From IMG/VR virus record IMGVR_UViG_3300018954_000004, positions 1 to 48,293 of that record: a DNA stretch of 48,293 bases; one strand, given 5' to 3'. A program made the translations under genes and the position numbers. The notes beneath the pieces were generated by a model. The model was given only the letters and a program-made list of their open reading frames with translations. It was not told the origin of the DNA and made no database searches. Source of the stretch: a virus. Below, piece after piece: positions 11,215 through 28,181 of this stretch (positions within the stretch are counted from its first letter, which is position 1; every line of letters begins with the position of its first letter).

Positions 11215-11222
11215 AGAAGGGG
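11215..11222 (-). promoter_or_regulatory. Late-leader motif before the tail completion gene
   Basis: CCCCTTCT on the coding strand, 7 nt before the ATG, in the context GGCGCCGCCCCTTCTTCCGTGC. The 3' end of this context matches the prohead-protease leader. It occupies the place where a Shine-Dalgarno sequence would be expected. Confidence 0.6.
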
Positions 11223-11228
11223 CGGCGC

Positions 11229-11630
11229 CTACCCGGAGTGCCGGGCCACGACGTTGAAGCTGAAGCGCGGGCGTTGCCTGTCGTCCGGAGGCTGGGCCAG
11301 GGGGCCCGCGCCCTCGCACCAGACGGACACGTAGCCGGGCACTCGCGCCAAGTGCAGCGCCGTCCAGCACGCCACGGCGAGCTCGCGCGTGGCAGTGACG
11401 GCGCCGCGCAGGCCGCGCACTACCACCTGGCACTCCGGCTCGAGGAGTCCGCCGCCGCCCAGGTACGCGCCGCCCTCGCCTCCGGTGAAGCGCACGCAGA
11501 CGAGCTTGTCCGGCCCGTCCACGGGGAAGGGCCCCGCGTAGAGGGAGGGCGGGTTGCCGCCGGTGGTGACGCCCAGGCCGGCCGCGTCGAGGTATTGGGC
11601 CAGCTCCAGCTCCACGTCCCGAGGCGTCAC
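11229..11630 (-). CDS. Tail terminator / minor capsid-like protein
   Basis: A 133-residue protein starting at a GTG that overlaps the end of the previous gene by 4 bp. It starts TPRDVELELAQYLDAAGLGV and continues with beta strands such as KLVCVRFTGGEGGAYLGG and ECQVVVRG, a pattern common to phage tail-terminator proteins (DUF3168-like). In this position it would cap the tail tube and connect it to the head-completion proteins. The name is based on gene order and fold-like pattern. Confidence 0.5.
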   Translation of the reverse strand: MTPRDVELELAQYLDAAGLGVTTGGNPPSLYAGPFPVDGPDKLVCVRFTGGEGGAYLGGGGLLEPECQVVVRGLRGAVTATRELAVACWTALHLARVPGYVSVWCEGAGPLAQPPDDRQRPRFSFNVVARHSG

Positions 11631-11950
11631 AGGTACACCTCGCAGTGGTCCAGCGCCCCGGCCAGGTTGAAGCGAGGTGTCACCCGAAGGGGTTGCTTGC
11701 CGGCGCCGATGTCCTCCACGTCCGCCCCGGGCGGGTACACCGTGTCCCGCAGATCCACACGCGCGTGGGTGAAGAGGACGGCCTCGCTGGTGGCGTCGGT
11801 GCCGTCTGCCGCGACGAGGCGCTTCACGCTGCCCTGGTAGCGGCAGCGGTGCGGCTGGGGCTCGGAGTACTCGTGCTCCCCGCGCGCGTTGGTGGACAGC
11901 CACCGCGCCACGTGGAAGGTGTGCCGGAAGCGGTGCCCCATGAGGCTCAT
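11627..11950 (-). CDS. Head closure / head-tail joining protein
   Basis: A 107-residue small beta-barrel-like protein (MSLMGHRFRHTFHVARWLS, then EPQPHRCRYQGSVKRLVAADG, later FNLAGALDHCEVYL). Size, position between the connector and the tail terminator, and beta content fit SPP1 gp16/HK97-type head closure proteins. It overlaps its neighbours at both ends by 4 bp (ATGA), indicating tight translational coupling. No enzymatic motif is seen. Confidence 0.5.
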   Translation of the reverse strand: MSLMGHRFRHTFHVARWLSTNARGEHEYSEPQPHRCRYQGSVKRLVAADGTDATSEAVLFTHARVDLRDTVYPPGADVEDIGAGKQPLRVTPRFNLAGALDHCEVYL

Positions 11951-12594
11951 CGCCGCCTCCGGAAGGGTGCGGCCAGCTGGCGCGCGGAGGCGGGGAGGGC
12001 GCCACGCCCGCCGTCCTCGCCCACCGCGTACGAGGCGGACGTGTCGCCGATGGCCTCGGAAGTCACGTCCCCGGGCCGCCCGTCCCGGCTCACGGCCGCC
12101 GTCAGCACCTCCACCGCGGCGAGCTGCAGGGCGGCCGGCAGGTCCACGACGAGGGACGCATCCAGCGCGCGCTGCCCCGGTGTTACCCAGCCCGCGTCGA
12201 AGGTGACGAGCACCTCGCCCGTGTCCTGCGCGTCCAGCGGCGTCGAGGAGATGCCCGTCGTCCACGTGCCGGTGAAGGGCCAGGGCTGGCCCCGGGCCAC
12301 CAGCCTTCCGTGCACTGAGGACTCCACCGCATACGTGCTGGGGGCACGCTCCTGGCCGCGCACCTCCACCCGGTGCACCTGCCGCACAGCCCCGGAGCGC
12401 AGCCAGAGGTACTGCCCGCCGCGCCCGGCCGCCGACTCCACCACGCCCAGGCGCCGGTGCAGCGGGTAGCCCACGTGCGCCGCCAGCGCCTCGCTTGCAG
12501 CGGTGATGAGCAGCGACAGCCGTTCCGCCTCCACCGCGTCACGCACGGTGGAGGGGAGCTGCTCAGCCGTCACGAGGTCCACGGGCGAGGGCAT
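11947..12594 (-). CDS. Head-tail connector (adaptor) protein
   Basis: A 215-residue protein with the typical adaptor layout: N-terminal helices (LVTAEQLPSTVRDAVEAERLSLLITAASEALAAHVGYPL), a beta region that includes TYAVESSVHGRLV, and C-terminal helices (ALDASLVVDLPAALQLAAVEVLTAAVS). HK97 gp6-like adaptors bind the portal ring and extend the DNA channel. It lies downstream of the capsid gene and overlaps the head closure gene by 4 bp. Confidence 0.6.
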   Translation of the reverse strand: MPSPVDLVTAEQLPSTVRDAVEAERLSLLITAASEALAAHVGYPLHRRLGVVESAAGRGGQYLWLRSGAVRQVHRVEVRGQERAPSTYAVESSVHGRLVARGQPWPFTGTWTTGISSTPLDAQDTGEVLVTFDAGWVTPGQRALDASLVVDLPAALQLAAVEVLTAAVSRDGRPGDVTSEAIGDTSASYAVGEDGGRGALPASARQLAAPFRRRR

Positions 12595-12603
12595 GGCGTC
12601 ACC

Positions 12604-13038
12604 TCACAGCGGCAGGCGCTGGCCGCCGCCCAGCACGAGGGTGGCGCCCGCCACGACGGACGGCGTGGTGCCTCCGGTGAAGTCCACCACCTCCACCACG
12701 CGCAGGTATCGGTGGTCCTGGGGGGTGTACTGCAGGTCGAAGTCCCGCTCCTTGCACGCACCGCCATCCGTGAAGGTGAGGGTAACGCTGGCGCCATCGA
12801 CGTTCTTCAGCGGCGCCCAGCCGTTGGTGCCGTTGGGGCTCGTCTCCAGCGTGTACGTGATGCTCGTCGCGGTGGGCGTGCCCGCGACGGCGCCGACGTT
12901 CACCACGAGCGTGCCGCTGCCGTACTTGCTGACGTCGAAGGGAGTGCCGTTGCGGCTGCCCTTCGCCTGCTGCGCGGGGGCCAGCGCCTGGTGGTCCGCC
13001 TTGTAGCGGTAGCCGATGTTCGTCCTGTCCGGGTTCAT
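12604..13038 (-). CDS. Predicted virion protein next to the capsid gene (possible decoration protein)
   Basis: A 144-residue beta-rich protein, e.g. GSGTLVVNVGAVAG, SITYTLETSPNGTNGW, HRYLRVVEVVDFTGGTTPSVVAGATLVLGGG. Genes directly after the major capsid gene often encode head decoration or stabilising proteins. I do not recognise the family. The start at 13038 is preferred because the leader contains GGAG 5 nt upstream, and the translation upstream is not conserved-looking. The leader also has a degenerate copy (GCGCCCTTCCC) of the late motif. Confidence 0.45.
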   Translation of the reverse strand: MNPDRTNIGYRYKADHQALAPAQQAKGSRNGTPFDVSKYGSGTLVVNVGAVAGTPTATSITYTLETSPNGTNGWAPLKNVDGASVTLTFTDGGACKERDFDLQYTPQDHRYLRVVEVVDFTGGTTPSVVAGATLVLGGGQRLPL

Positions 13039-13099
13039 GTGTTCTCCGTGGGAGGGAAGGGCGCCGTCCACTACGACAGGCGGCGCAGGGGGGGGCGCG

Positions 13100-14305
13100 T
13101 CAGTACGGCATCTCCGTCCGCTCGGCGAACGCCTTCTTGTAGCGGAGCAGGTAGTCGATGTGGGTGATGCCGCGCATGGTCACCATGTCCGCGCTGAAGT
13201 CCGTGCCGTTCTCGCCCATCACCACCTCCAACGGCGTAGCGATGCCGAGAATCAGTTGCGCGGCGAGGCCGAAGCCGAGGATGTCGTCGCCCGCGAGCGT
13301 CTCCGTGTGGAAGTACGGCCGGCCGTTGAGCGTCGGCATCTCCGAGTCGCGCAGCTCCGGGAAGACCCAGCCAGCGTTGTCACGGGTCTGCTTCAGCGCG
13401 TGGAAGGTGTCCGTGTCCGAGTAGTAGAAGCCGCGGTTGGCCCGCACGCCGCCGGGGATGTTGGCCTTCGCCACGTCCGCGAGCAGGCCGTCCGTGTCGG
13501 CAATCTTGTTGGGGGTGGTATTGCCCGCCGCCGCCTTCCGCTGGCCCGAGTCCATCTGGTTGCGCACACCCGTAGGGCGCTTAGGGCCGACGCCCTTCAG
13601 GCCTACGGTGTCCAGCTCCAGGGCCACCGCGGCGCTCATGTCCTCGCCGAGAATGGCGGACGAATCCATGGTGCCCAAGCGGAGCAGGTCGTTGCTCAGG
13701 CGGCCCAGGGCGGAGAGCTTGTGCGCCTGGAGGACGAGGCGCCCGCCCTTCACGGTGGACGGCGTCGGCGGCTCGCCCTCGGCCACCCAGTACACCTGCA
13801 CGCCCTCGTCGATGGTGCCCATGGTGAGCTGGGTGCCGTAGTCCGAGACGGTGCGGATGCCGGCGGCGAGCAGGATGGAGTTGGGGCGCGTCAGCTCCAC
13901 CAACTCCGTGGACACCGTCTCCCGCGCGAAGAGGCCCCCCTGCTCGAAGACGCCCAGCAACTGGCCGGCCGCCTTCGTTCGCTCCAGGAAGGCGCCGAGC
14001 CGCTTGAAGTGGTCGGTGTTCGTCAGACCGAAGTGCTTGGCACGGCCGTAGTACTCCTGCTTCAGCCGCAGGCCGAGGCGGGCGTAGAGCTGCTTCTGAC
14101 GCGTCTCCTCGGAGAGGTCGAGCTGCAGGTCCTTGCCGGTGATGGGGGCGGAGGCCGGCGGGTTGGGCCGGCTGGCGAGGGCCGCCTCGACCGCGACGGT
14201 GGCCGCCTGGTCGACGGCCTTCTGCAGGTGGGTGGGCAGCGGGGGCGGGCCGCTCGGCGCAGCAGCGGTGCCGGGGGCGGCGGCGTTCTTCTTCTTCGTC
14301 TTCAT
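13100..14305 (-). CDS. Major capsid protein, HK97 fold
   Basis: A 401-residue capsid subunit. The N-terminal ~110 residues are Lys/Ala/Pro-rich then helical and may form a scaffold-like delta region. HK97-fold features follow: QGGLFARETVSTELVELTRPNSILLAAGIRTVSDYGTQ (N-arm and E-loop-like start), then AEGEPPTPS, KLSALGRLSNDLLR and LELDTVGLKG, and a C-terminal DILGFGLAAQLILGIATPLEVVMGENGTDF. It should assemble into the icosahedral head after prohead protease maturation. The clear AGGAG ribosome site lies 5 nt upstream. It lies between the protease and connector genes as in HK97. Confidence 0.8.
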   Translation of the reverse strand: MKTKKKNAAAPGTAAAPSGPPPLPTHLQKAVDQAATVAVEAALASRPNPPASAPITGKDLQLDLSEETRQKQLYARLGLRLKQEYYGRAKHFGLTNTDHFKRLGAFLERTKAAGQLLGVFEQGGLFARETVSTELVELTRPNSILLAAGIRTVSDYGTQLTMGTIDEGVQVYWVAEGEPPTPSTVKGGRLVLQAHKLSALGRLSNDLLRLGTMDSSAILGEDMSAAVALELDTVGLKGVGPKRPTGVRNQMDSGQRKAAAGNTTPNKIADTDGLLADVAKANIPGGVRANRGFYYSDTDTFHALKQTRDNAGWVFPELRDSEMPTLNGRPYFHTETLAGDDILGFGLAAQLILGIATPLEVVMGENGTDFSADMVTMRGITHIDYLLRYKKAFAERTEMPY

Positions 14306-14333
14306 GAAATCTCCTGGGAGGGCTTCGGTAGCC

Positions 14334-14341
14334 AGAAGGGG
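14334..14341 (-). promoter_or_regulatory. Late-leader motif before the capsid gene
   Basis: CCCCTTCT in a GCGCCGCCCCTTCT context, 28 nt before the capsid ATG. Unlike most copies, this leader still has a strong AGGAG between motif and start. The highest-expressed virion gene may need the better ribosome site. Confidence 0.55.
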
Positions 14342-14347
14342 CGGCGC

Positions 14348-15394
14348 TCAGCGGGTGGGCGGGAGGAGGGCGGCGTACGCGCGCACATCCGCTAGGGGCA
14401 GCGCATCGGCCTGGGCCTTCGAGAAGCCGAGCGCCTTGGCGACGCGACTGCGCAGCGCCTTGAGCTCCTCCTCGTCCTCCTCCTGCTCGGCGTCGTCCTT
14501 ATCGGCTGTGTCCTCTGAGTCCTCCTCGGGTGCCGGCTCCTCGTCAGCGGTGGTCTCCTCCGGCGCGTCCTCGTCCTCGGCTGCCGCTTCCTCCGAAGGC
14601 TCCTCGGTGTCCTCCTCGGCTGCTTCGTCGCCTTCCTCTTCGGACGCGGTCTCGTCTTCTTCCTCCGCCTCGTCCTCGTCCTCCGAACTGGACGGGTCTT
14701 CCTCCGAGGCGGACTCCTCATCCTGCTCGGCGTCGGCCTCCTCGGCGTTCGGTTCCACGGGCTCGTCCTCGACTGGCTCCGTGTCCTCGGCTTCCTCGTC
14801 CTCCTCCTTCTCCGTGGCCGTGGACGCCTTCGCCTTGAGCGCCAGCACCAGCGCCTTCACTTCCGCCACCAGCCCCTGGCAGGCTGCCTGCAGGTCGCGG
14901 TACGCCTTGAGGGAGTCCGCGGCGGAAGCGCCGGAGTCGTCCCCATCCAGGGAGCGCACGCGCACCGCGTCCTGGTTGGCGGGCACATTGACGACGCTCA
15001 GCTCGAGCAACTCCACCAGCGGGAAGTCGTAGCCGCCTTCCTGGTTGGGCACCGGCTCGGCCTCGGGCGCGGGCCGGAAGCCGATGCTGCAGGCCGAGAG
15101 GGTGCCCGCCTTCACCTTGGCTGCGATGGTGCGGGAGAGCTCGTCGGCACCGTCGAAGTGCAGCGCCGCCACCCACTGGCCCGCCTCGCGGAAGCACCGC
15201 GCGAAGCCGATGGCCGGGCCCCACCTGTCGTGCTGCCACAGCAGCGGGACGCGCACCTCGTCCCCAGCCGCCTTGAGGGCGAGCACCCGGTCCTGGTGCC
15301 TGTCGAGGTTGGTGGAGGTGATGCGGAATACCGGCGGGGCGTCACCGCTCCCGGTCGGTGAGGGCTCCAGCAGCTTGCGGAAGGTTCTCTTCAT
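14348..15394 (-). CDS. Prohead protease (S78-like) with long acidic C-terminal tail
   Basis: A 348-residue protein. Residues 20-150 form a phage prohead serine protease domain: ITSTNLDRHQDRV, H55 in LLWQHDRWG, S103 in LSACSIGF, and ELLELSVVNVPANQ, where the His and Ser are the presumed catalytic pair. A helical stretch (165-190) is followed by about 120 residues made almost only of Glu, Asp, Ser, Ala and Thr (about 196-318), then a short helical end. Acidic tails like this suggest a built-in scaffold or a DNA mimic that keeps the prohead interior free until processing. It lies between portal and capsid genes. The ATG at 15394 is chosen because it follows the late-leader motif. Confidence 0.75.
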   Translation of the reverse strand: MKRTFRKLLEPSPTGSGDAPPVFRITSTNLDRHQDRVLALKAAGDEVRVPLLWQHDRWGPAIGFARCFREAGQWVAALHFDGADELSRTIAAKVKAGTLSACSIGFRPAPEAEPVPNQEGGYDFPLVELLELSVVNVPANQDAVRVRSLDGDDSGASAADSLKAYRDLQAACQGLVAEVKALVLALKAKASTATEKEEDEEAEDTEPVEDEPVEPNAEEADAEQDEESASEEDPSSSEDEDEAEEEDETASEEEGDEAAEEDTEEPSEEAAAEDEDAPEETTADEEPAPEEDSEDTADKDDAEQEEDEEELKALRSRVAKALGFSKAQADALPLADVRAYAALLPPTR

Positions 15395-15401
15395 GCACGG
15401 G

Positions 15402-15409
15402 AGAAGGGG
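15402..15409 (-). promoter_or_regulatory. Late-leader motif before the protease gene
   Basis: CCCCTTCT within GGGCGCCCCTTCTCCCGTGC, 7 nt before the ATG. No separate Shine-Dalgarno sequence is visible between motif and start. Confidence 0.6.
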
Positions 15410-15521
15410 CGCCCGGCTCGCGACGCCCGCCGGCCGTCCGCCTCCGGCACGCCATTCCTCATGGCGCCGTCGATGAAGGCCAGGAGGTCGCCCTCGGCGG
15501 AGCGTCACCGCCGGGGAATCA

Positions 15522-16877
15522 TCAGACGCGCCCCTCCTCGCCCTGCCTGTCGCGCGGCGGCTCCGGCGTGGCGTTGGCGGCGGCGCTCTCCGTGTTGTTG
15601 CCCCCGGCCCCCTGGCCCGGCAGCGGCGCGGGGCGCTTGTCGCCCAGCTCCGGCAGCGGTTGGAAGCCCGCGAAAGTGCGCGCCTCGTTGAAGGTGAAGG
15701 CCTCGGTGATAGGCGTCGTCATGGCACGGAAAACCCGCTCGAACTCCTGAGGGCGCGGGTCCTCGTAGTCGAGGATGACGTCGGCGTCGACGAGCGGCAC
15801 CAGCCGGTGCTGGAACCAGGCGAGGAGGAACTCCAGGCGGGGAGCTACCGCGTACTCGGCCAGGTGGTACTTCGCGGCCTCCGAGGTGCTGCGGTTGCTG
15901 CTGCTCGTGTCGCCCACCAGCTCCGGCGGCACGTTGTAGACTTGGCGCACGTACGCGCGCAGGGACTTCGCCAGCTCGTCCGCCTGCAGCTCGCGGTAGT
16001 TGACGGCGAGCTGGGCCAGCGTGACGCCAGCGGGGGCAAACCACACCTTGCCCGCGTTGGCCGGGCCGGAGAATTCCGCTTTGAAGCGCTTCTCCAGATC
16101 GTCCGCCGCCTCGTCTGCCTCGAAGTCCTCGCGCTTCGAGTCGAGGCCCACCACGGCCGTGGGCAGGCCGCCCCGGTCGAAGGTGCTCTTCGTCGAGCGG
16201 TCAATCGCCTCCAGCGTGTCGAGCTGGTCCCCCAGTGCCATGCCACGCCCCGCGCCGCGCCCCAGCGGGTTCTCCGGGTCCAGGTGCTTCAGCCAGAGGA
16301 CGTTCTCGGCGGGCACCTGCCCGTGGAATTGGTTGTAGGAGACGGTGAAGTAGGGGCGGCCCGGCTGGGGCGTCTGGTGCACGCAGTGGGGCGGCACCAC
16401 CTCCCAGCCCACCGGCCGGCCGTCCTGCCCCACGCGCAGCCACAGGAACGTCTCGCCGCCCAGGTCTAGGTGCACCTGTGCCAGCTTCCGCACCTCGCGC
16501 CCGGGGAACTCCGGGTGCGGGGACTCCAGCAGGCGCAATACTTCGTGCGCCGGAAGCTCCACCAACTCGCCCGCCTGGGTGGCATCCTCCAGCGCCTTGC
16601 GCCGCTCGCGCCTGTCCAGGGATTTCCAGCGCGGGTCTGCCCACCGCTTCGCACCTCCGCTCACACGCTTGTAGGCCTTCCACCGTGGTGTGGCCACCGC
16701 GTCCGCCACCGTGTCGACCACCGCCCGGAGCCAGCCGTTCTCCCGGTACGCGGCAAGCACCTCGCGCGTCCCCCGGCGCGGGGAGAAGGACGCGACGGGC
16801 AGGGCGTGGACGAGGGGGCCCCGAGTGGTGGGCAGCAGGCCCAGGGCTTTCAGTGCGCGGCGAACGAGAGAGGCCAT
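15522..16877 (-). CDS. Portal protein, HK97 family
   Basis: A 451-residue portal subunit. Typical parts are the N-terminal ...YRENGWLRAVVDTVADAVATPRWKAYK..., the ETFLWLRVGQDGRPVGWEVVPP wing segment, WLKHLDPENPLGRGAGRGMALGDQLD, and the C-terminal VNYRELQADELAKSLRAYVRQVYNVPPELVGD followed by AKYHLAEYAVAPRLEFLLAWFQHRLV. Twelve copies form the ring for DNA packaging at one vertex. A Pro/Gly/Asn-rich tail ends the protein. It is separated from TerL by a cargo lipoprotein gene, which interrupts the normal terminase-portal order. Confidence 0.8.
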   Translation of the reverse strand: MASLVRRALKALGLLPTTRGPLVHALPVASFSPRRGTREVLAAYRENGWLRAVVDTVADAVATPRWKAYKRVSGGAKRWADPRWKSLDRRERRKALEDATQAGELVELPAHEVLRLLESPHPEFPGREVRKLAQVHLDLGGETFLWLRVGQDGRPVGWEVVPPHCVHQTPQPGRPYFTVSYNQFHGQVPAENVLWLKHLDPENPLGRGAGRGMALGDQLDTLEAIDRSTKSTFDRGGLPTAVVGLDSKREDFEADEAADDLEKRFKAEFSGPANAGKVWFAPAGVTLAQLAVNYRELQADELAKSLRAYVRQVYNVPPELVGDTSSSNRSTSEAAKYHLAEYAVAPRLEFLLAWFQHRLVPLVDADVILDYEDPRPQEFERVFRAMTTPITEAFTFNEARTFAGFQPLPELGDKRPAPLPGQGAGGNNTESAAANATPEPPRDRQGEEGRV

Positions 16878-16883
16878 GCCCCG

Positions 16884-16891
16884 AGAAGGGG
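16884..16891 (-). promoter_or_regulatory. Late-leader motif before the portal gene
   Basis: CCCCTTCT, 6 nt before the ATG. CCCC can pair with the CGGGG that follows the TTCT, giving a very short hairpin that includes the only SD-like bases. Confidence 0.55.
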
Positions 16892-16909
16892 TGCTGGGCG
16901 CGAGCGAAG

Positions 16910-17584
16910 CTACGTGCGGGATGGAGCGGCACCACCGGGAGGAGCACCACCGGGAGGAGCACCACCGGGAGGAGCACCACCGGGAGGAGCACCACCGGGA
17001 GGAGCACCACCGGGAGGAGCATCGCTAGGTTTATCCTGTATCTTGTTGTTTTTTTCCTTGGCGTTTAGATAGTCTAACAGCGCTTCGCTTGCGCTGCTGC
17101 GCGAGCTATTCCATGAGGCAATTGCAATGTTGCACTGGACATTTGCCTCCTCGTCCTTGAGGTTAACTGAGCGAGCGGCGGTTGCGGCCAACTCCCCAGC
17201 ATCCTTGGAACGGGTAAGTAGGGCATTGGCTGCAACGCCAAATAATGCCCCAAGAACTGGAAGGGATGCGTTTGATACTCTGTATATATCTGAGTCGTTG
17301 TATGCGCCTGCCGTCATCACAACTCCAGCGCCGATTGATGCACCAGAGAGAATTCCGAAGAACCACCCCCATTGGGCGTTCTTGATCGAGCTCACTCGAG
17401 CTGTGTTCTCCACGTTGCGACAGAAGTCGATTCCTTGATGGCCTGGCGTTGGAGTAAATTTATCTTCACCTGCCCCAGATACGAATAGGGCCCTCTCCGG
17501 AGGGCGCTTGTAGACGTGTGTTGCGGAGACCCCTGCGCACGCGACGAGTGGTGTTGCGGCAAGCAGCAGTGCAATTCTCTTCAT
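16910..17584 (-). CDS. Lipoprotein with C-terminal PPGGA repeats, inserted between terL and portal
   Basis: A 224-residue predicted lipoprotein: KRIALLLAATPLVAC gives a lipobox with Cys near residue 16. Two hydrophobic segments (WFFGILSGASIGAGVVMTAGA and VLGALFGVAANALL) suggest membrane association. Helical residues about 130-185 are followed by six perfect PPGGA repeats encoded by a 15-bp tandem array. A strong AGGAGG ribosome site precedes the ATG. The gene is much less GC-rich than the terminase and portal genes on either side, so it looks like a recently acquired cargo gene. A lysis (spanin-like) or surface-exclusion function is possible but unproven. Confidence 0.65.
   Translation of the reverse strand: MKRIALLLAATPLVACAGVSATHVYKRPPERALFVSGAGEDKFTPTPGHQGIDFCRNVENTARVSSIKNAQWGWFFGILSGASIGAGVVMTAGAYNDSDIYRVSNASLPVLGALFGVAANALLTRSKDAGELAATAARSVNLKDEEANVQCNIAIASWNSSRSSASEALLDYLNAKEKNNKIQDKPSDAPPGGAPPGGAPPGGAPPGGAPPGGAPPGGAAPSRT
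16930..17019. repeat. Six perfect tandem copies of a 15-bp repeat
   Basis: The unit CACCACCGGGAGGAG (plus strand) repeats six times without a mismatch, encoding PPGGA on the minus strand. Perfect identity implies recent expansion by slippage, so copy number probably varies between strains. Confidence 0.9.
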
Positions 17585-17665
17585 ATTCCCCCTCCTTATG
17601 CAATGCAGTTCTGAGGCTACTGGTGACCGGCATGTAGGTGCAAGATGCTGAATAGATAATCTTCT

Positions 17666-19773: not shown

Positions 19774-19781
19774 AGAAGGGG
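19774..19781 (-). promoter_or_regulatory. Late-leader motif before terS
   Basis: CCCCTTCT, 7 nt before the GTG start. CCCC can pair with the CGGGG that leads into the start codon, so the initiation site itself could be in a hairpin. Confidence 0.6.
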
Positions 19782-19784
19782 CGC

Positions 19785-20231: not shown

Positions 20232-20239
20232 GCCCTTCG

Positions 20240-20247
20240 AGAAGGGG
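20240..20247 (-). promoter_or_regulatory. Late-leader motif with mini-hairpin
   Basis: CCCCTTCT lies 8 nt before the ATG of the first late gene. CCCTTC pairs perfectly with the following GAAGGG around a 2-base turn. GAAGGG is also the only SD-like sequence, so the hairpin would mask it. Confidence 0.6.
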
Positions 20248-20263
20248 CGCCAGCGGCCCGCCA
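20247..20263. repeat. 17-bp direct repeat, copy 1
   Basis: GCGCCAGCGGCCCGCCA occurs here and again at 20313-20329, 66 bp apart, upstream of the late cluster. It may be a regulator or terminase recognition repeat, or a trace of duplication next to the DUF4062 insertion. Confidence 0.6.
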
Positions 20264-20312
20264 TGCCGCGCGGGGGCGCACGGCTAACGGGCCACGTCCG
20301 AGCGGCCAGGAC

Positions 20313-20329
20313 GCGCCAGCGGCCCGCCA
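20313..20329. repeat. 17-bp direct repeat, copy 2
   Basis: This is an exact copy of 20247-20263. Beyond it the composition drops in GC toward the DUF4062 gene, so it sits close to the edge of the probable cargo insertion. Confidence 0.6.
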
Positions 20330-20635
20330 GGAACGTCAGGGCCTCAGAAAAACGGGGGTCGTCTGACAGATCTCCCTCGGGAAATTCGGAAGAATTCGCG
20401 TGCCCGGATTGCACCGCGCCGAGCAATCAAGAAATGGCGCCACCTGCCCGGTTTCCCACCCCGGGGGCCCCGCACCTACATTCAGTGTCGCTGTAAAACC
20501 ACCGTGCCATACATGTGGGTGGCACGACTTTTGTCCAGACACTGAATAGGAGCTTCGTCATCACGTCGAACGGCGACGCGTTGAGCGAAGAGAGAATGAG
20601 CTGCTCGCGATATGGTGCCAGGACCAAGGAGGCAC

Positions 20636-21646
20636 ATGGACAAGCGCTACCAAATTTTCGTTAGTTCGACCTACGTCGACCTGAAAGATGAACGTTCAAA
20701 GGTGATGCAGGCACTAATGGAAATGGACTGCATTCCAGCTGGAATGGAGTTGTTTCCTGCTGCGGACGAGGATCAGTGGCGATTCATCGAGAAGGTCATC
20801 GATGACTGCGACTATTATCTTCTGATTATTGGGGGGAGATACGGCTCGGTTACGGCCGAAGGGATAAGCTACACCGAAAAAGAGTATGATTACGCAGTGT
20901 CAAAAGGACTTAAGGTTATTGCTCTTATCCACGGAGCGCCTGACAGCCTGTCTGTGGCGAAGTCAGACGTAGCCAAGGACAAGATCGAAAAACTCACCGC
21001 CTTCAAAGCCAAGGTAAGCTCAGGGCGCCTTGTTAAGTTTTGGCAAAACGCAAATGAATTACCGGGACTGGTTGCGCTGAGTCTCAGTAAGACAATCAAG
21101 ACATATCCTGCCGTCGGTTGGGTTAGGGCCAATACTGTTGCGAGCATTGACGCACTGTCAGAAGTGAACGAATTGCGAAAGCGGAACGCCGAACTGGAGG
21201 AGGAACTGCGAAAGCTGAAGGACGAACGTTCACCTTCCGTAGAGGATATCGCGGGTCTCGAGGAGCACCTTCAGGTGACGGGCACGCATATTCGTGGCAC
21301 TGGAACTCAGTCTCGTCGAGAGCCATGGCAGATTGTCATGAGCTGGGCGGATGTTTTTGGGCTGATCGCACCTCACCTGATCCAGCCGCTTGGCGACGTG
21401 GCTGTCTACAACATACTCTCAGTGGCAATATATGATAAGACGGGCCGGCTCGACAGAACTCCAAGGCTTGACGACCAGATATTCCAAACGATCAAGGTGC
21501 AGCTCTCGGCGCACCGGCTCGTCCATCTTGAGCCCCAAAGCACTTCAAGCGGCCAAATGGGTTTGTTCTGGTCCCTCAGTGATTCGGGGCGAGAGCAAAT
21601 GCTAAAGCTCAGAGTAGTAAAAAAGGGCGAGAGCGCTGATGGATAG
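20636..21646 (+). CDS. DUF4062 domain protein with coiled coil, low-GC cargo
   Basis: A 336-residue protein. Residues 4-95 match DUF4062 well: [61 protein letters not shown], then [11 protein letters not shown]. This is an alpha/beta, TIR-like fold often at the N terminus of STAND/NACHT signalling proteins. A coiled coil spans about 160-195 ([24 protein letters not shown]), and the C-terminal ~130 residues look like a winged-helix-type domain. No NTPase motif is present. The start at 20636 has AAGGAGG 5-6 nt upstream. It has much lower GC than its surroundings. A phage- or plasmid-defence role is plausible but only inferred. Confidence 0.7.
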
Positions 21647-21701
21647 AGCTGTTGCCGGCGGTGGGGATGGACATCGAAGGAGCTTTTCGGGTTGTGCGCC
21701 G

Positions 21702-21709
21702 CCCCTTCT
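21702..21709 (+). promoter_or_regulatory. Late-leader motif, first copy in the lysis region
   Basis: CCCCTTCT in a GCGCCGCCCCTTCT context, 7 nt before the ATG at 21717. The motif is on the plus strand here, again sense with respect to its gene. No SD sequence lies between motif and start. Confidence 0.6.
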
Positions 21710-21716
21710 AGCTGGC

Positions 21717-22103: not shown

Positions 22104-22131
22104 CAGCCTCAGCGAGCCTGCCCTGAGCGCA

Positions 22132-22170
22132 CCCCTTCTCCTGGGCGCAGTCCACCCGCAGTCCCTGGAG
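22132..22170 (+). promoter_or_regulatory. Late leader with SD-occluding hairpin, gene at 22177
   Basis: CCCCTTCT at 22132-22139 runs into CTCCTGGG (22138-22145), which pairs with CCCTGGAG (22163-22170) with one mismatch. GGAG in the 3' arm is the ribosome site, 6 nt before the ATG. The 17-nt loop contains GCAGTCC twice. The element is clearly homologous to the holin leader at 23416-23456. Confidence 0.65.
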
Positions 22171-22176
22171 AACCCG

Positions 22177-22908
22177 ATGAGCAAGCCCGAGCAGGTGCCC
22201 AGTGTTGGCCGCGTCGTCCACTACGTCCTCGGAGACGAGGCCGGCCTCCGCAGGGGAGAGGTCCGCCCCGCCATCGTCGTCGCCATGCGGCACCCGGAGA
22301 TGCCAAACCTGCAGCTGCTCTCCGACGGCCCGAACGACTTCCCTGGCATCCTCAACGGCGAGCTGTGGCGTGGCTCGGTGCCCTTCGGCGGGCCGGACCA
22401 GCCCGGTACTTGGTTCTGGCCGCCCCACGTGCCCGCGAAGCCGGCAGCCCCCACGTGCGCACCGCCGCGCGAGGTGGTGGAGAAGGCGGAGCGCATCGTG
22501 TACGTGCCCGCGACGCCGGCCGCTCCCGCGTACACCCCGCCGCCCGAGTTGGTGGAGAAGGCGACCCCTCCGCACGGACCGCTGGACCCGAAGCGCACCG
22601 GCTTCCTCGGCTTCGCGACGTACAACGACGTGCCCGGGCCGCATGGCCCTTGGAAGACGTTCGACGGACGGGATGTGCCGGGCTGGGACGCGGTCGGCCC
22701 GCTGACCCAGGCCCGGTGGGTGGCGGCCGGCACGGCTGAGCGGGATGTGGCCTTCAGCATCGCTGGGCACGCCGCGGTGCAGGAACTGGAGAAGGCCGGC
22801 ATCACCGACGATGAGACGCTCAACCGGGTGCAGGTGGCTATCCTCCGCCACCGCTCGGACAGCGTCTCCCCGCCGGACCCGCTGCCCAGGGACGCCGTCA
22901 TCCGCTGA
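22177..22908 (+). CDS. Conserved-looking phage protein with Pro-rich repeats, unknown function
   Basis: A 243-residue protein in the lysis region. Residues 1-85 form a small beta-rich domain (PSVGRVVHYVLGDEAGL, RPAIVVAMRHPE, LQLLSDG, GTWFWPPHVP). Two imperfect repeats follow (PAAPTCAPPREVVEKAERIVYVP and PAAPAYTPPPELVEKATPP). The remainder includes FATYNDVPGPHGPWKTFDGRDVPGWDAVG and a helical tail. It may be a virion or lysis-associated protein. I recognise no catalytic motif and no signal peptide. Confidence 0.6.
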   Translation: MSKPEQVPSVGRVVHYVLGDEAGLRRGEVRPAIVVAMRHPEMPNLQLLSDGPNDFPGILNGELWRGSVPFGGPDQPGTWFWPPHVPAKPAAPTCAPPREVVEKAERIVYVPATPAAPAYTPPPELVEKATPPHGPLDPKRTGFLGFATYNDVPGPHGPWKTFDGRDVPGWDAVGPLTQARWVAAGTAERDVAFSIAGHAAVQELEKAGITDDETLNRVQVAILRHRSDSVSPPDPLPRDAVIR

Positions 22909-22912
22909 GCCG

Positions 22913-22948
22913 CCGCTTCTCCCGAGGGCATACCTTCGCCCTCGGGAG
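22913..22948 (+). promoter_or_regulatory. Late leader with SD-occluding hairpin, endolysin gene
   Basis: A motif variant (CCGCTTCT) overlaps CTCCCGAGGGC (22919-22929), which is perfectly complementary to GCCCTCGGGAG (22938-22948). This gives an 11-bp stem with an 8-nt loop. The GGGAG at the 3' end is the endolysin ribosome site, 5 nt before the ATG at 22954. Confidence 0.7.
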
Positions 22949-22953
22949 CCTCC

Positions 22954-23412
22954 ATGGTGACCTCGCAACGTGCCGCCTTCCTCGCCCTCGTCCTCTCGCA
23001 GATGCACGCCCCTTACCGCTGGAATGCGAAGGGCACGCGGGACGCCACTACCGGGCAGCGTCTCTTCGACTGCTCCGGGCTGGTGACATGGGCCCTGCGC
23101 GAGGTGGGCGGGCCGGACTGGCGCGCCACTCACAACACTGACCGCCTCTGGGCGGCGTGCGCCCCGCTGCTGCCGGACGGCGAGCTGCTACCCGGAGACC
23201 TGGTGCTGTACCACCGCGCCGGCGCACCCGAGGACGCCGAGCACGTCATGGTGCACGTGGGTGGGGGCGTGGTGGTGGGTGCCTCCGGTGGGGGCCGCGC
23301 CACCCTCACACTGGCGGATGCCATGCAGCACGACGCGAAGGTGAAGGTGTACGCGCACCTGGACTACCGGCCGGGACGCATGGGCTTCCGGCGCCTGCCC
23401 TTCACCTCGTAG
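22954..23412 (+). CDS. NlpC/P60-type endolysin
   Basis: A 152-residue cysteine peptidase, the likely cell-wall lysis enzyme. The catalytic Cys40 is in LFDCSGLVTWALREVG. The conserved histidine is H97 or H101 in AEHVMVHVGGGVVVGA, and LLPGDLVLYH marks the usual strand before it. It has no signal peptide and no separate binding domain, so it would reach peptidoglycan after the downstream holin opens the inner membrane. Enzymes of this family usually cleave the peptide stem, often gamma-D-Glu to diamino acid bonds; the exact bond here is not known. Translation may be held by the leader hairpin. Confidence 0.8.
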   Translation: MVTSQRAAFLALVLSQMHAPYRWNAKGTRDATTGQRLFDCSGLVTWALREVGGPDWRATHNTDRLWAACAPLLPDGELLPGDLVLYHRAGAPEDAEHVMVHVGGGVVVGASGGGRATLTLADAMQHDAKVKVYAHLDYRPGRMGFRRLPFTS

Positions 23413-23415
23413 GCG

Positions 23416-23456
23416 CCTCTTCTCCTGGGGGCAGTTCCCCTCGCAGTCCCCAGGAG
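23416..23456 (+). promoter_or_regulatory. Late leader with SD-occluding hairpin, holin gene
   Basis: A motif variant (CCTCTTCT, 23416-23423) overlaps CTCCTGGGG (23422-23430), which pairs perfectly with CCCCAGGAG (23448-23456). The latter contains the AGGAG ribosome site, 6 nt from the ATG at 23463. Relative to the 22177 leader both arms differ, and the pairing here is longer, suggesting the structure rather than the sequence is kept. Confidence 0.7.
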
Positions 23457-23462
23457 TAATTC

Positions 23463-24077
23463 ATGAAGCGCATCATCCTCGCCGCCGCGCTCGCGGTCAT
23501 CCTCACCGCGCCGGTGGCCCTGGCCCAGGACGGCACCCAGCCGCCGGGCCCGACGTTGCAGTCCCTCCTCATGTCCGCCGCCGTCGCCGTCACGCCCGTG
23601 GTGGCAACGGCGCTGGCCGGCCTCATCGCCGCCGCGCTGGTGGCCCTGACGAAGAAGCTTCAGGCGCAAGCAGGGGAGTCGAAGCTCGCCCAGGTGGCCA
23701 CGCGCGCCAGCATGCTCGCCGAGGGCATCGTCCGGGACCTCGAGGTGACGCTGCGGCCGAAGCTGGAGGCGGCGTCCGCCGACGGCATCCTCACCGCCGC
23801 CGAGCTCCAGCACATCAAGGCCACCGCCCTGGAGCAGCTCAAGACGAGCCTGGGCCAGCGCGGCGTGGCCGAGCTGCAGGAGGTGCTGAAGCTCACCGCT
23901 GGCAGCGTGGGCACCTTCCTGTCCGGGCTCATCGAGGCGGCCCTCGACAGGATGAAGGCGAGCCGCGCGGCCGCGACGGCGGACGAGGTCGTCTCGGTGG
24001 CGCGCTCGCTCGGCGCCATCGGCAGCCAGGCCGCCCTGGCCCCGGTGACGGCCTCCCCTCAGACGCCCCGCGGGTAG
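23463..24077 (+). CDS. Holin-like membrane protein (LL-H type)
   Basis: A 204-residue protein. Residues 1-21 are a cleavable-signal-like segment (MKRIILAAALAVILTAPVALAQ). A membrane span follows at about 37-65 (SAAVAVTPVVATALAGLIAAALVALTKKL), then a long helical region with a second moderately hydrophobic stretch near 140-160. Size, topology and position directly after the endolysin fit the LL-H family of holins that permeabilise the inner membrane at the lysis time. The alternative is a membrane-anchored spanin-like protein. Confidence 0.6.
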   Translation: MKRIILAAALAVILTAPVALAQDGTQPPGPTLQSLLMSAAVAVTPVVATALAGLIAAALVALTKKLQAQAGESKLAQVATRASMLAEGIVRDLEVTLRPKLEAASADGILTAAELQHIKATALEQLKTSLGQRGVAELQEVLKLTAGSVGTFLSGLIEAALDRMKASRAAATADEVVSVARSLGAIGSQAALAPVTASPQTPRG

Positions 24078-24100
24078 CCGTCGCCGCGGGGCTCTCCCGA

Positions 24101-24292
24101 GTGCTGTCTGACGTGCCGGTGCGGACCGGCTACGTGGAGGCCCAGGCCGGCGTGTCCTCGCTCTCCGGCGCCTACGCGCGCCTGGAGGGTGGGGTGCGGC
24201 TGCGCAGCAACCTGGGGCTCTTCGCCTTCGCCGAGGCCAACCAGCGCGAGCGCATCGCCGGCGCTGGGGCGCGGTGGACGTTCGGCTGGTAA
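24101..24292 (+). CDS. Small beta-strand protein after the holin (possible outer-membrane/spanin partner)
   Basis: A 63-residue protein with alternating strands (TGYVEAQAGVSSLSGAYARLEGGVRLRSNLGLFAFAEANQ, ending GAGARWTFGW). The terminal aromatic after alternating residues resembles an outer-membrane beta hairpin. The frame stays open further upstream into the end of the holin gene, so the true start may be earlier than this GTG. No family is recognised. Its position suggests a role in the outer-membrane step of lysis. Confidence 0.45.
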   Translation: MLSDVPVRTGYVEAQAGVSSLSGAYARLEGGVRLRSNLGLFAFAEANQRERIAGAGARWTFGW

Positions 24293-24300
24293 CGTGACAC

Positions 24301-24328
24301 GGCCCGCTCCTGTGCGCTGGAGCGGGCC
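24301..24328. terminator. Perfect 10-bp GC stem between convergent genes
   Basis: GGCCCGCTCC and GGAGCGGGCC pair perfectly around an 8-nt loop. It sits right after the lysis cassette and before the convergent gene at 24357, a good position for a bidirectional terminator. A U tract is lacking, so termination could be Rho-assisted. Confidence 0.55.
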
Positions 24329-24356
24329 GCAGTCCCGCAACTACAATCTATTTCTA

Positions 24357-24560
24357 TCAGGCGCGTTGACTTCTCTCGAGCGCGTGGACGGCGTTCTCAT
24401 ACCGGCCGCGACTCTGGATGAATCGCTTCTGGGCCAATTCCACTGTGAAGTCGTTGGCGGCCTTCAGCATCGACAACAGCTGCAGGTCCGCCGCAAGCTC
24501 GGCGCGAGCCTCGCGGTACTCCTTCATCACGTCCGCTTCCTCTTCTTTCGTCAGTGCCAT
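24357..24560 (-). CDS. Small helical protein, unknown
   Basis: A 67-residue charged helical protein (MALTKEEEADVMKEYREARAELAADLQLLSMLKAANDFTVELAQKRFIQSRGRYENAVHALE). It converges on the lysis cassette. I chose the ATG at 24560 because AAAGGGG lies 9 nt upstream; a longer 92-residue form starting at 24635 is possible. It resembles small lysogeny-expressed or regulatory phage proteins only in general character. No family is recognised. Confidence 0.5.
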   Translation of the reverse strand: MALTKEEEADVMKEYREARAELAADLQLLSMLKAANDFTVELAQKRFIQSRGRYENAVHALERSQRA

Positions 24561-24670
24561 CCGGTGCATCCCCTTTGAGCCATGGTTCGTAGGCCCGGGA
24601 GTGATGCTAGCGCCTCCTGATGCGGCATCGCTCATGCAGTGCAGCAGGGCGCCGCGCCGGAAAGGACCGC

Positions 24671-25381
24671 GTGAAGCCCTACTACCGCAACGACTCCATC
24701 ACCCTGTACCTCGGCGACTGCCGCGACCAGCTCCTGGACCTCCCGTCTCATTCCGTGGACCTGCTCCTCACGGACCCGCCCTACGGCATGGCCTACGAGG
24801 GCAAGGGGAAGAACGCCGGCGGCATCCGCGGGGACGGCTCCCGCCAGGGCGTGCGCGTGCTACGGCAGGCGCTCTTCGCCGCGAGCCGGGCCCTGGCGCC
24901 GGACGCGCACGCATACGTTTTCTGCCACTGGGAGAGCTGGCCGGACTTCTTCGACGCCACCGCCTCACACTTGCGCGTGAAGGGCGCGCTGGTGTGGTGG
25001 AAGGCGCAGGGCGGCATGGGTGACACGCGCGGCGCCTACGCGCCGGATTACGAGGTGGTGCTGCACGCCTCCGGGGCGAAGCGCCGGCCGCTTGCCGGGA
25101 AGCGCCAGGGTGCCGTGCTCGCGGGGTACCTGCCCGTGCCGCACCAGCAGCGCACGCACCCCACGGAGAAGCCGGTGCAGCTGCTGGCCCACCTGGTGAC
25201 GAAGTCCTGCCCCGACGGAGGCAGGGTGCTGGACCCCTTCGCGGGCACCGGCGCGACGCTGGTGGCCGCGCAGCAGCTCGGTCGGCGCGCGGTGGGCGTG
25301 GAGCTCGAGGAGCGCTACTGCGAGGTGGCGGCCCGTCGGCTGGAGCAAGCGCTGCGTGAAGGGCCGGGCCGCGCAGCCTGA
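24671..25381 (+). CDS. DNA N4/N6 methyltransferase, beta-class order
   Basis: A 236-residue amino-methyltransferase acting on DNA. The catalytic motif DPPYG (35-39) comes first, a target-recognition stretch follows, then HPTEKP (163-168) and the AdoMet-binding DPFAGTGATL (188-197). This order defines beta-class enzymes. No restriction partner is adjacent, so it is an orphan, probably protecting phage DNA from host restriction or modulating its expression. GTG at 24671 has GGAAAGGA just upstream and is preferred over the longer frame. A 27-bp inverted-repeat element starts 10 nt after its stop. Confidence 0.8.
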   Translation: MKPYYRNDSITLYLGDCRDQLLDLPSHSVDLLLTDPPYGMAYEGKGKNAGGIRGDGSRQGVRVLRQALFAASRALAPDAHAYVFCHWESWPDFFDATASHLRVKGALVWWKAQGGMGDTRGAYAPDYEVVLHASGAKRRPLAGKRQGAVLAGYLPVPHQQRTHPTEKPVQLLAHLVTKSCPDGGRVLDPFAGTGATLVAAQQLGRRAVGVELEERYCEVAARRLEQALREGPGRAA

Positions 25382-25391
25382 CGCACTGGGA

Positions 25392-25418
25392 CAGGGCGGC
25401 CGCACGTAGCAGCCGCCC
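25392..25418 (+). repeat. Left inverted repeat of the ImmA/IrrE module
   Basis: It matches the reverse complement of 27501-27527 at 25 of 27 positions, with an uninterrupted 18-bp core (25401-25418, ending CAGCCGCCC). It lies between the methyltransferase stop and the protease stop. The two copies bound the lower-GC two-gene module exactly. Confidence 0.8.
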
Positions 25419-25434
25419 ACGCGCCACAACGAAC

Positions 25435-26652
25435 TCAGGTGCTAGGACGACGCGGATTGAGGGGCACGACCTGGCCCAGTGGTCCATCCTTCGGAACGTT
25501 GTTCGCTGGGGACGTTGTCGTCGTCTCGGGCCTCCGCAAGGCAAGAACGAGACCCGTCTTCCCTTCGAAAAAGGCGGGTGGCAGACGAGTCAGGCGCTCC
25601 ACATCGTGTGGGGCGTAGGGCAATCGGTCTTCCACTGCCGAAGGCCCGTGGGCCTCCGCAACCATCTCTGCCGCGCGCATCAAGAGCCGTGGCAACTCCA
25701 CAGGCACATCGCGCTCGTGTGGCTCGTTCGTCCGGTACCCGCGGCGGTTGTAGTTGATCATCAACTGCCGCTCACGCTCAGGCGAGATGAGGTCGAGCGA
25801 GGCTGCTCGCTTCACCATCATCTTGATGGACACCTTCCAGCGCAGCTTCAACGGTTGGAGGTTGTCCAAGTCTACAAGGATGACCTCATCCAAGAACGCA
25901 GAACGCGGAAAGAGGAATGCACCTGCGAAGCGGTGAGCTTGATCCTCCAGCATTCGCCACTCGGCGGAAGAGCGTAAACGTGACGGGGCTACCGAGCGAT
26001 GCAGTAGCAAGTGTCCCAACTCATGAGCTGCATCAAAGCGCGAGCGGGCACCGGAGTTTCGGTCGGATGCAAGGAGTACGGTAGGGCGCTGCCCACGCCA
26101 GTGGCTCAGTCCATCCAATCGAGGTTCGCCGAGTTCGCAGCGCACAACCACAGCACCCTTGTTCTCTAGCAACCAGACAACGTTGCTGATTGGCCCGTCA
26201 CCCAACTTCCAGTGTCGCCGAGCTGCAACCGCTAGTTCTTCGATGCGGTCGCCAGTCAGTGCGGCCGGGTCACCAATGCCGAAGTCAGGGAAGTCGACAG
26301 GAGGCAATGTCACCGCATCGCCCATATCGAATGCTGCGTCACCCGCCCACTTCGCCCAGCGTTCCGCTCGAGCGCTCAGGCTCGGCGACACGGTACGCGG
26401 GGCACGAAGGAAGGTGGCGCCAGGCTCCGGTGCCACCTGCGGGCGCAGCAAGAGACGTACCGGCACGCCGAGGCAATTGGCGATGCGCTCCAAACAAGCC
26501 GGGCTGGGCGTCGCGTCTCCCAGTTCGTACGCACTCACTGTACTGCGGCTCAGCCCCACATGGTCGGCGAGCGCAAGTTGGGTGAGGCCTCGCGCTTCGC
26601 GAGCTTCCACCAACCGGCTGGGGACGAACCCTGGGGTTCCGAGAATCATCAC
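25435..26652 (-). CDS. XRE helix-turn-helix / ImmA-IrrE zinc protease fusion
   Basis: A 405-residue protein. Residues 13-66 are an XRE-type helix-turn-helix (LVEAREARGLTQLALADHVGLSRSTVSAYELGDATPSPACLERIANCLG). Residues about 150-250 are an ImmA/IrrE metallopeptidase with HELGH (210-214) and a downstream QAHRFAGAFLFP segment that supplies the third zinc ligand region. Such proteins cleave or bind a partner repressor or antitoxin and often switch on phages, conjugative elements or toxin genes. It overlaps its upstream partner by 4 bp, so the two form one operon. GC is clearly lower than in neighbouring genes. Confidence 0.8.
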   Translation of the reverse strand: MMILGTPGFVPSRLVEAREARGLTQLALADHVGLSRSTVSAYELGDATPSPACLERIANCLGVPVRLLLRPQVAPEPGATFLRAPRTVSPSLSARAERWAKWAGDAAFDMGDAVTLPPVDFPDFGIGDPAALTGDRIEELAVAARRHWKLGDGPISNVVWLLENKGAVVVRCELGEPRLDGLSHWRGQRPTVLLASDRNSGARSRFDAAHELGHLLLHRSVAPSRLRSSAEWRMLEDQAHRFAGAFLFPRSAFLDEVILVDLDNLQPLKLRWKVSIKMMVKRAASLDLISPERERQLMINYNRRGYRTNEPHERDVPVELPRLLMRAAEMVAEAHGPSAVEDRLPYAPHDVERLTRLPPAFFEGKTGLVLALRRPETTTTSPANNVPKDGPLGQVVPLNPRRPST

Positions 26653-27371
26653 TCCTCCTCTGCTCGAGGTGCCTCGTCGGACTTCGGCAGGCTGCGCGGC
26701 GTCATCTGCAGATCGTCCTGAATAGTCTCCTGCGCAGAACGCGACTTGTTGAGCAACGACAGCAAGCGCTCGTTGAGGGACAACGGTCGCTCAAGGAAGA
26801 AACCCTTCTCCGGAGCAGGAAAGAGGACACGTGCAAACGAGGGGATGCCGAGGTTCGCAGCACTGCGCCTGGTCGGCCCGTAAACCATCTGAGCGAAGAC
26901 AGGCGGTTCTCCCTTGGAGGTCGCAAGGATGGCTTTTGCCACTGCGTTCTCGGCTGCGAACATGTCCATGTTGAGGAACATCTGCTGCGCTTGATTCGCG
27001 AGCGCGAGGCCGAATCCCGTCGGTCGCGGACCGGCATACTCGTCGCGGGCATAGTGCTGGACGACCAACACCTTACCGTCACCAAACACTCCCTCCACGT
27101 GTGTAGAGCTGAACGTGGAATTCTTCGACTTGGTGGGTACACCGCCAAAGCGTTGGACCAACTTGTAGAACTCATCTTCGAGGAGTCCCCGCCGCATCTG
27201 CGGAAACACCTCACGGGCCATTTCCGGCGAGAAGCGGGTTTCGCACTCCTTGTGGAGAGAACGATTGATGGCGGCAATGGTCCGCAGCCACGCATCGAAG
27301 AACGCCTCGGGCACATGCTTCTCGAACACGGATCGGCGGCTCAGCGACATGGCGGGCTGCGCATTCGTCAT
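26649..27371 (-). CDS. Unknown partner protein of the ImmA/IrrE module
   Basis: A 240-residue protein I do not recognise. The N-terminal third is helical (VPEAFFDAWLRTIAAINRSLHKECETRFSPEMAREVF), the middle contains strands (VEGVFGDGKVLVVQHYARDEYAGPRPTGFGLALANQAQQM), and the end is charged and proline-rich. There is no signal peptide, membrane segment or obvious catalytic motif. Its stop overlaps the protease start (ATGA), so both are made together, with this protein first. By analogy with ImmA/ImmR- and toxin-antitoxin-type pairs it may be the substrate or effector, but nothing in the sequence proves it. Confidence 0.6.
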   Translation of the reverse strand: MTNAQPAMSLSRRSVFEKHVPEAFFDAWLRTIAAINRSLHKECETRFSPEMAREVFPQMRRGLLEDEFYKLVQRFGGVPTKSKNSTFSSTHVEGVFGDGKVLVVQHYARDEYAGPRPTGFGLALANQAQQMFLNMDMFAAENAVAKAILATSKGEPPVFAQMVYGPTRRSAANLGIPSFARVLFPAPEKGFFLERPLSLNERLLSLLNKSRSAQETIQDDLQMTPRSLPKSDEAPRAEEE

Positions 27372-27500
27372 CTTTCATCTCCCACTGTCATGGGGGTGGT
27401 CAGCCATCTATACGCACAAAGCGACCGAAAATGCCAGTAAAGATGACGTTCTGCGTGTGGTTGTGTGTGTGTTGATGTCTTCCGTGCCAATATGTAGAGG

Positions 27501-27527
27501 GGGCGGCTGCTACGTGCGAACGCCCTG
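27501..27527 (-). repeat. Right inverted repeat of the ImmA/IrrE module
   Basis: This is the reverse-complement partner of 25392-25418 (25/27 identical). The 18-bp core is 27501-27518. On the minus strand it contains the stop codon and last codons of the adjacent gene at 27510, so it overlaps coding sequence on this side. Confidence 0.8.
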
Positions 27528-28010
27528 CCGGCTCAGCTCGAAGACGAGCTCGTGGACGAGGGCGCTCACCGCGGGTTCGGACGCCCACGGCAGCGCGGGC
27601 ACGTACCACTCGGGCTGCTCGCCGTCCGGCCCGCCGTACACCTGCAGCTGAGGAGGCTGGGCGCCCGTCCGCACCACCCGGAGGCGCCCGGACTGCCAGC
27701 ACACCACGGGAACGCCGACCAGGTGCTGCTCTGCTCGTGACACGAGGGACTCCGGGGCGGTCAGGGAGAGAGCCCGGGCGGGAAGGGCGGGGGGGAAGCC
27801 CTCCCCGGCCCGGGCGGGCGCTGTGCAGCAGCGCCGCGAGAACAACCCCGCCAGGACCCCATGCCCCGGCGGGTGTGGTGGACGTGGCAGGCGAAAGAAG
27901 CCGCGCCAGAGGGCCTGCCGCCACCACGACAGCTTCAGTCGTCGTGCGTGCCCAGCGCGCAAATGCGCCGGCCGCCCACCAGCAGCAGTGCCGCGCCGCA
28001 CCTGCAGCAC
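27510..28010 (-). CDS. Hypothetical protein outside the protease module
   Basis: Up to 166 residues; the credible part is the C-terminal ~120 (APESLVSRAEQHLVGVPVVCWQSGRLRVVRTG, YGGPDGEQPEWYVPALPWASEPAVSALVHELVFELSRQGVRT). The N-terminal 40 residues overlap the small gene at 27935 and may not be translated; I could not identify a better start. No family is recognised. Its last codons lie in the right inverted repeat, so the repeat-mediated event may have truncated or replaced its end. Confidence 0.45.
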   Translation of the reverse strand: MLQVRRGTAAGGRPAHLRAGHARRLKLSWWRQALWRGFFRLPRPPHPPGHGVLAGLFSRRCCTAPARAGEGFPPALPARALSLTAPESLVSRAEQHLVGVPVVCWQSGRLRVVRTGAQPPQLQVYGGPDGEQPEWYVPALPWASEPAVSALVHELVFELSRQGVRT

Positions 28011-28153
28011 TCCTCGGGCGGGAGCTGGCGCGAGGCCGGCGGCTGCGGCTCGGGCTCCCCGCGGAGCTGGCGCAGCGCTCGGTCGTAGTCATCGCGCACG
28101 CGCCGACGGCGCAGTTGCTCCGGCGTCTGGGCTTGGGGACGGGCTCTCCGCAC
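27935..28153 (-). CDS. Small Arg-rich protein with C-terminal Cys cluster
   Basis: A 72-residue protein starting at GTG with GGAGG 5-7 nt upstream. The first half is basic and helical (RRRRVRDDYDRALRQLRGE). The end, PPEECCRCGAALLLVGGRRICALG, looks like a small zinc-binding knuckle. It carries the late-leader motif 20 nt upstream and so is probably part of the late regulon. No named family. Confidence 0.55.
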   Translation of the reverse strand: MRRARPQAQTPEQLRRRRVRDDYDRALRQLRGEPEPQPPASRQLPPEECCRCGAALLLVGGRRICALGTHDD

Positions 28154-28173
28154 GTGGATACCTCCACGGCGAG

Positions 28174-28181
28174 AGAAGGGG
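28174..28181 (-). promoter_or_regulatory. Late-leader motif, rightmost copy
   Basis: CCCCTTCT in a GGGCGCCCCTTCTC context, 20 nt before the GTG at 28153. A regular GGAGG ribosome site lies between, and CCTTC could pair with it only weakly. Confidence 0.55.

Follow-up and report, generated by a model that had tools for sequence, protein, structure and literature searches.

A precedent among described phage transcription systems is that of phiEco32, whose phage sigma factor gp36 uses one promoter element and starts RNA 6 to 8 bp downstream of it (PMC8948821). Late promoters of giant phages have likewise been described by short sequences, AACA-(6N)-TA/G in AR9 and TATG in phiKZ (PMC5312081). In phage T4, longer transcripts that reach genes e and soc from upstream fold in their leaders so that the Shine-Dalgarno (SD) sequence is hidden; transcripts initiated at the late promoters lack the 5′ arm of the fold (PMC3014915).

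Here, we analyze a 48,293-base stretch of DNA, a virus record taken by itself and referred to below as the window. A preliminary description of its sequence had noted a short word, CCCCTTCT, in front of late genes in both orientations and proposed that it is either a translational control element or a promoter element. We propose that CRCCCCTTCT, the full element, makes up by itself a promoter read by the σ70-family protein encoded by the prophage (1633–2556), giving mostly leaderless late mRNAs and an SD-hiding hairpin in the leaders of lysis genes. We put the probability of this reading at roughly 0.83.

Results

The window contains 13 copies of CCCCTTCT compared to 1.30 expected, and none of 100 dinucleotide shuffles of the window reached this number. 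The conserved element is longer than this word and comprises 10 bp; its ten-letter form CGCCCCTTCT is located directly 5′ of virion and lysis genes in a family of prophages of Myxococcus-type bacteria. When the pattern CRCC[CGT]CTTCT was searched, exactly 12 boxes were found in the window (10 exact and 2 with one mismatch), all of them on the coding strand and in front of genes. Stray copies of CCCCTTCT at 2393, 2785, and 38234 fell away once the CR dinucleotide was required.

An exact coding-strand copy was found before each of the nine genes for which the preliminary description had claimed one, and the gap to the start codon is 6 to 8 nt in six cases, as described. On the minus strand, boxes are located 7 nt from gene 11207 (box at 11215–11224), 7 nt from the head maturation protease gene 15394 (15402–15411), 6 nt from the portal gene 16877 (16884–16893; sequence CACCCCTTCT), 7 nt from the small terminase gene 19766, which has a GTG start (19774–19783), and 8 nt from gene 20231 (20240–20249). 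On the plus strand, the box at 21700–21709 lies 7 nt from gene 21717, which encodes a small protein in the presumed lysis region. Three exact copies have longer gaps: 28 nt, with an SD, at the major capsid gene 14305 (14334–14343, minus strand); 37 nt, with an SD and a hairpin, at gene 22177 (CACCCCTTCT at 22130–22139, plus strand); and 20 nt at gene 28153, which has a GTG start and the SD GGAGG (28174–28183, minus strand). The variants noted earlier in front of genes 22954 and 23463 proved to be genuine one-mismatch boxes, both on the plus strand: CGCCGCTTCT at 22911–22920 precedes the endolysin-like gene 22954, whose product is an NlpC/P60 protein, and CGCCTCTTCT at 23414–23423 precedes gene 23463, which is holin-like by appearance only.

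The motif had been thought to be missing from the early operon. This does not hold, since a plus-strand box, CGCCCCTTCT at 883–892, heads the operon that begins with a gene for a RusA-like Holliday junction resolvase (950–1636, plus strand; Pfam PF05866, 3.1e-16) and continues with the gene for the σ70-family protein (1633–2556, plus strand). Relatives also have a box before RusA, and in seven of them an ATG is found 8 nt from it.

Two genes next to box-headed units differ in composition. The DUF4062 gene at 20612–21646, located between two divergent box-headed units, is AT-richer than its surroundings and had no match in 24 related records; it looks like an acquired accessory gene. An AT-richer, lipoprotein-like gene with PPGGA repeats (16910–17584), likewise unmatched in the related records, is inserted between the terminase and portal genes, and the portal gene retains its own box directly after it.

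Relatives of the prophage were gathered from viral contigs and genome contigs using the large terminase and capsid proteins as probes; the hosts given in their records are mostly Myxococcus and Corallococcus. The box precedes the same genes in related prophages, about 30 in number, from Myxococcus, Corallococcus, and their relatives, adding up to 272 distinct sites. Most of these loci (8 to 22 kb) contain 5 to 12 copies, about 10 each, versus 0.2 to 0.9 expected. When near-start sites were aligned on the word, position −2 was C in 99% and position −1 was G or A in 99%; the 14 copies without CR in this alignment also lacked the start-codon geometry. The most distant relative, G023 (L043), apparently has CNCNCCTTGT in front of its genes instead, and the box may therefore drift between lineages. 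The G023 fragment contains no sigma gene.

These data bear on whether a C-rich word simply recurs by chance in a 69% GC genome. Three of the 13 window copies are indeed chance matches, with neither CR nor start-codon geometry. As an account of the boxes themselves, chance is practically out of the question: it is refuted by the shuffles and by the 272 sites with fixed geometry in relatives, and controls with the reversed pattern gave nearly nothing. The box-plus-start pattern was almost confined to prophage contigs in the six host genomes examined, with 0 to 2 matches per genome for reversed controls, and a host promoter class was rejected on this ground. When viral contigs were scanned with the core pattern, the contigs with multiple matches, among the matches listed, belonged to this prophage group only; those outside it had single matches. 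In the literature searched, no paper contained the word CCCCTTCT along with the terms promoter and phage, and literature on late promoters or leaderless genes of myxobacterial prophages yielded nothing on point.

One prophage-carrying record (L019; terminase identity 88%) is titled Comamonas sp. KCTC 72670. A genome search placed its 9.0-Mb genome in the same order as Corallococcus, and the Comamonas name is probably wrong.

The distance between box and start codon falls into two types. An ATG is located exactly 7 nt past the box at 56 sites and 8 nt past it at 104 sites; GGGC is anchored directly to the ATG, and near-box starts read GGGCATG. Most near-box starts (7 to 8 nt) have no SD before the start codon, as is expected of leaderless mRNAs: an SD of at least 3 nt was absent in 67% of them, compared to 22% of random control ATGs, and none had an SD of at least 5 nt. 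Leader-type starts carry an SD of at least 4 nt in 29 of 30 cases, and an SD is present at 9 of 10 window genes that have no box. Whether a gene is leaderless or leadered is largely its own property. Homologues of the portal, protease, 10767, and 21717 genes are always of the leaderless type (all 28 portal sites have the ATG at 6 to 9 nt), and gene 11207 has it at 7 or 8 nt at each of 23 sites; capsid and endolysin genes are almost never leaderless, with 18 of 21 capsid-gene sites being of leader type. Gene 28153 is leadered in the window and has a leaderless ATG in several of the related phages.

Near-box and leader-type starts have the identical 10-bp box. A constant sequence at 6 to 50 nt from the start codon fits a fixed RNA start rather than a ribosome-related element, and start codons 7 to 8 nt from the box would be compatible with an RNA start of the phiEco32 type, 6 to 8 nt downstream. 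The preliminary description had pointed to a resemblance of the motif to the anti-SD and to binding by a phage RNA-binding protein. More generally, the box could act in RNA, either bound by a phage protein or a small RNA or serving as a cleavage site, in control of late-gene translation, and its close, fixed spacing to many start codons is what such a site might look like. We consider this very improbable. The box is equally conserved where the start codon lies 20 to 50 nt away and has an SD of its own, near-box genes lack an SD, divergent units on both strands open with the box, and the box tracks the sigma factor. The 16S rRNA contained no complement to the box longer than 6 nt, and pairing between the two was rejected.

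No conservation at −35 was detectable: the region upstream of the box is near-flat in all four clades, and no 6-mer, with its position left free, was present at more than about 9% of the sites. On the basis of position, clade, and flexible k-mers, we rejected a −35 as well as any further upstream element, leaving one conserved element per site.

In the leaders of the lysis genes, the box end has an additional property. In predicted foldings of box-containing RNA, the SDs of the 22177, 22954, and 23463 leaders are closed (0.00 open), whereas in RNA beginning at the predicted start 7 to 9 nt past the box they are open at 0.52, 0.47, and 0.26, respectively. The leader of gene 22954 contains a hairpin, CTCCCGAGGGC-ATACCTTC-GCCCTCGGGAG (22919–22948, plus strand), with the SD in its 3′ arm and a 5′ arm that stops at the predicted RNA start; gene 23463 has the same design. 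In the clearest hairpins, the 5′ arm begins with the last two to three box bases and stops just short of the predicted RNA start. The leaders of most relatives of the lysis genes fold likewise, and those of capsid genes mostly do not. Across all leaders, predicted SD masking was significant overall (Wilcoxon P = 7e-4) and individually in 10 of 61 leaders; as a general leader feature, the hairpin was rejected, since it is clear at lysis-region leaders only. The ability of the box end to pair with the SD at these genes is the other point that speaks for an action of the box in RNA. The resemblance to the anti-SD noted earlier is relevant only in this respect, at lysis genes and in read-through RNA.

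The candidate reader of the box is the product of 1633–2556, which matches sigma factors in sequence and, as far as a model can tell, in predicted fold. It matches TIGR02937 (2.9e-7) and Sigma70_r4 (PF04545, 2.8e-5), the latter at 24.0 bits, just below the 24.1 cutoff; the region 2 match is weak (0.025), and an alignment with RpoS spans amino acids 60 to 265 (E = 0.003). Similarity thus covers regions 2 and 4, as in the σ70 family. The AlphaFold2 model has a mean pLDDT of 73.6 and a pTM of 0.49, and sigma factors lead its Foldseek matches in the PDB (E values from 1.2e-5); TM scores over the whole chain are low.

Homologues of this phage-encoded sigma factor are present in 19 of 24 related records at 30 to 71% identity. 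Of the five records lacking one, G007 and G016 stop close to RusA, and two others, G008 and G023, are short fragments. The matches examined in a scan of viral contigs with the sigma alignment were members of this prophage group, and no homologue was found among INPHARED phages. Among 145 genomes of the order, a sigma homologue and at least three boxes coincide in 20; 2 have boxes only, 2 have the sigma homologue only, and 121 have neither (Fisher P = 3e-20). Since both reside on the same prophage, their co-occurrence partly reflects shared ancestry; it documents co-inheritance and does not prove contact.

G010 (L011) offers a natural test of what happens when the reader is lost: it lacks the RusA/sigma region, and the sequence that follows is similar to the right-hand flank of the window. 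Its boxes comprise two exact and seven one-mismatch copies, compared to 119 and 28 elsewhere (P = 4e-4). The sequence pattern is suggestive of relaxed constraint; at least one of the G010 variants is common to orthologues in intact relatives.

The box could instead be a promoter element read by another prophage protein, such as an activator acting with a host sigma factor, the sigma-like gene being merely co-resident. Co-inheritance leaves room for this, and further proteins are common to the whole group. We nevertheless regard it as unlikely. The fixed 7 to 8 nt to the presumed RNA start corresponds to the −10 position of a sigma factor rather than to a usual activator site, no other conserved upstream element exists, and a sigma factor with no known target is available in an operon that is itself headed by the box.

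Discussion

Our results argue for recognition of the box by the prophage sigma factor, and comparative evidence gives good support to the suggestion of the preliminary description that the motif is a promoter element for this protein, with near-leaderless transcripts. In the model that we propose, host RNA polymerase carrying the σ70-family protein would read the box at the prophage late genes and at the RusA/sigma operon. The box would replace the −10 box, with RNA starting about 7 to 9 nt downstream, normally at the A of GGGCATG. Most late mRNAs would then begin at or within a few nucleotides of the start codon and be translated as leaderless messages; at leadered genes (capsid, lysis, and some others), the start codon would follow 20 to 50 nt downstream with its own SD. 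At lysis genes, the box end and the next ~9 nt would form the 5′ arm of the SD-hiding hairpin. With the SD hidden by this box-derived arm, read-through RNA from upstream genes should be poorly translated; box-initiated RNA would lack the arm. Because the RusA/sigma operon is headed by a box, positive feedback is possible.

Besides the shared ancestry of box and sigma factor and the restriction of a clear hairpin effect to lysis-gene leaders, two observations speak against the model. Region 4 of sigma factors usually reads a −35 element, and the prophage protein retains region 4 homology, yet no −35 was detected. The box is also very GC-rich for a melting element. On balance, we find it fairly probable that all parts combine, i.e., a GC-rich one-box promoter for the phage's own sigma factor, start codons of most virion genes that coincide with the RNA start, a box that doubles as the arm of a lysis-silencing hairpin, and sigma self-feedback as an induction switch.

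If true, a whole Myxococcota prophage group would have a late-promoter code, and an uncharacterized sigma factor of phages would gain a target. Virion genes that are mostly leaderless would be available as a naturally occurring collection from a phage family of high GC content, and the logic of T4 gene e, a lysis gene silent in read-through RNA, would be seen to recur with unrelated sequences.

Like the window's prophage, the Myxococcus phage Mx8 is temperate and has hosts of the same kind. Neither the box nor homologues of the sigma protein or of the window's terminase were found in it, and lacking box and sigma homologue, it was rejected as a relative. The late promoters of AR9 and phiKZ are similar in having a short single element near the RNA start of late genes; they differ in being read by phage multisubunit RNA polymerases, none of which were seen here (PMC5312081). 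The likeness to T4 gene e would lie in a late promoter that adjoins the ribosome binding site, with a lysis gene as the best case in both phages. The sequences, however, are unrelated. In the window, the 5′ arm includes the end of the proposed promoter box itself, and the design is found at several genes of the lysis region. With the gp36 promoters of phiEco32, the window shares a phage-encoded sigma factor and a single conserved element of ~9 to 10 bp at late genes, with no −35 (PMC8948821). The phiEco32 element of middle and late promoters, tAATGTAtA, is AT-rich, and its sigma factor has no region 4 homology (PMC8948821); here, the element is GC-rich, region 4 similarity is kept, the phages are prophages, and most starts are apparently leaderless. 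Judged from sequence, the promoter of the window thus appears to be of the phiEco32 kind, but GC-rich, mostly leaderless, and equipped with a T4-like lysis safeguard.
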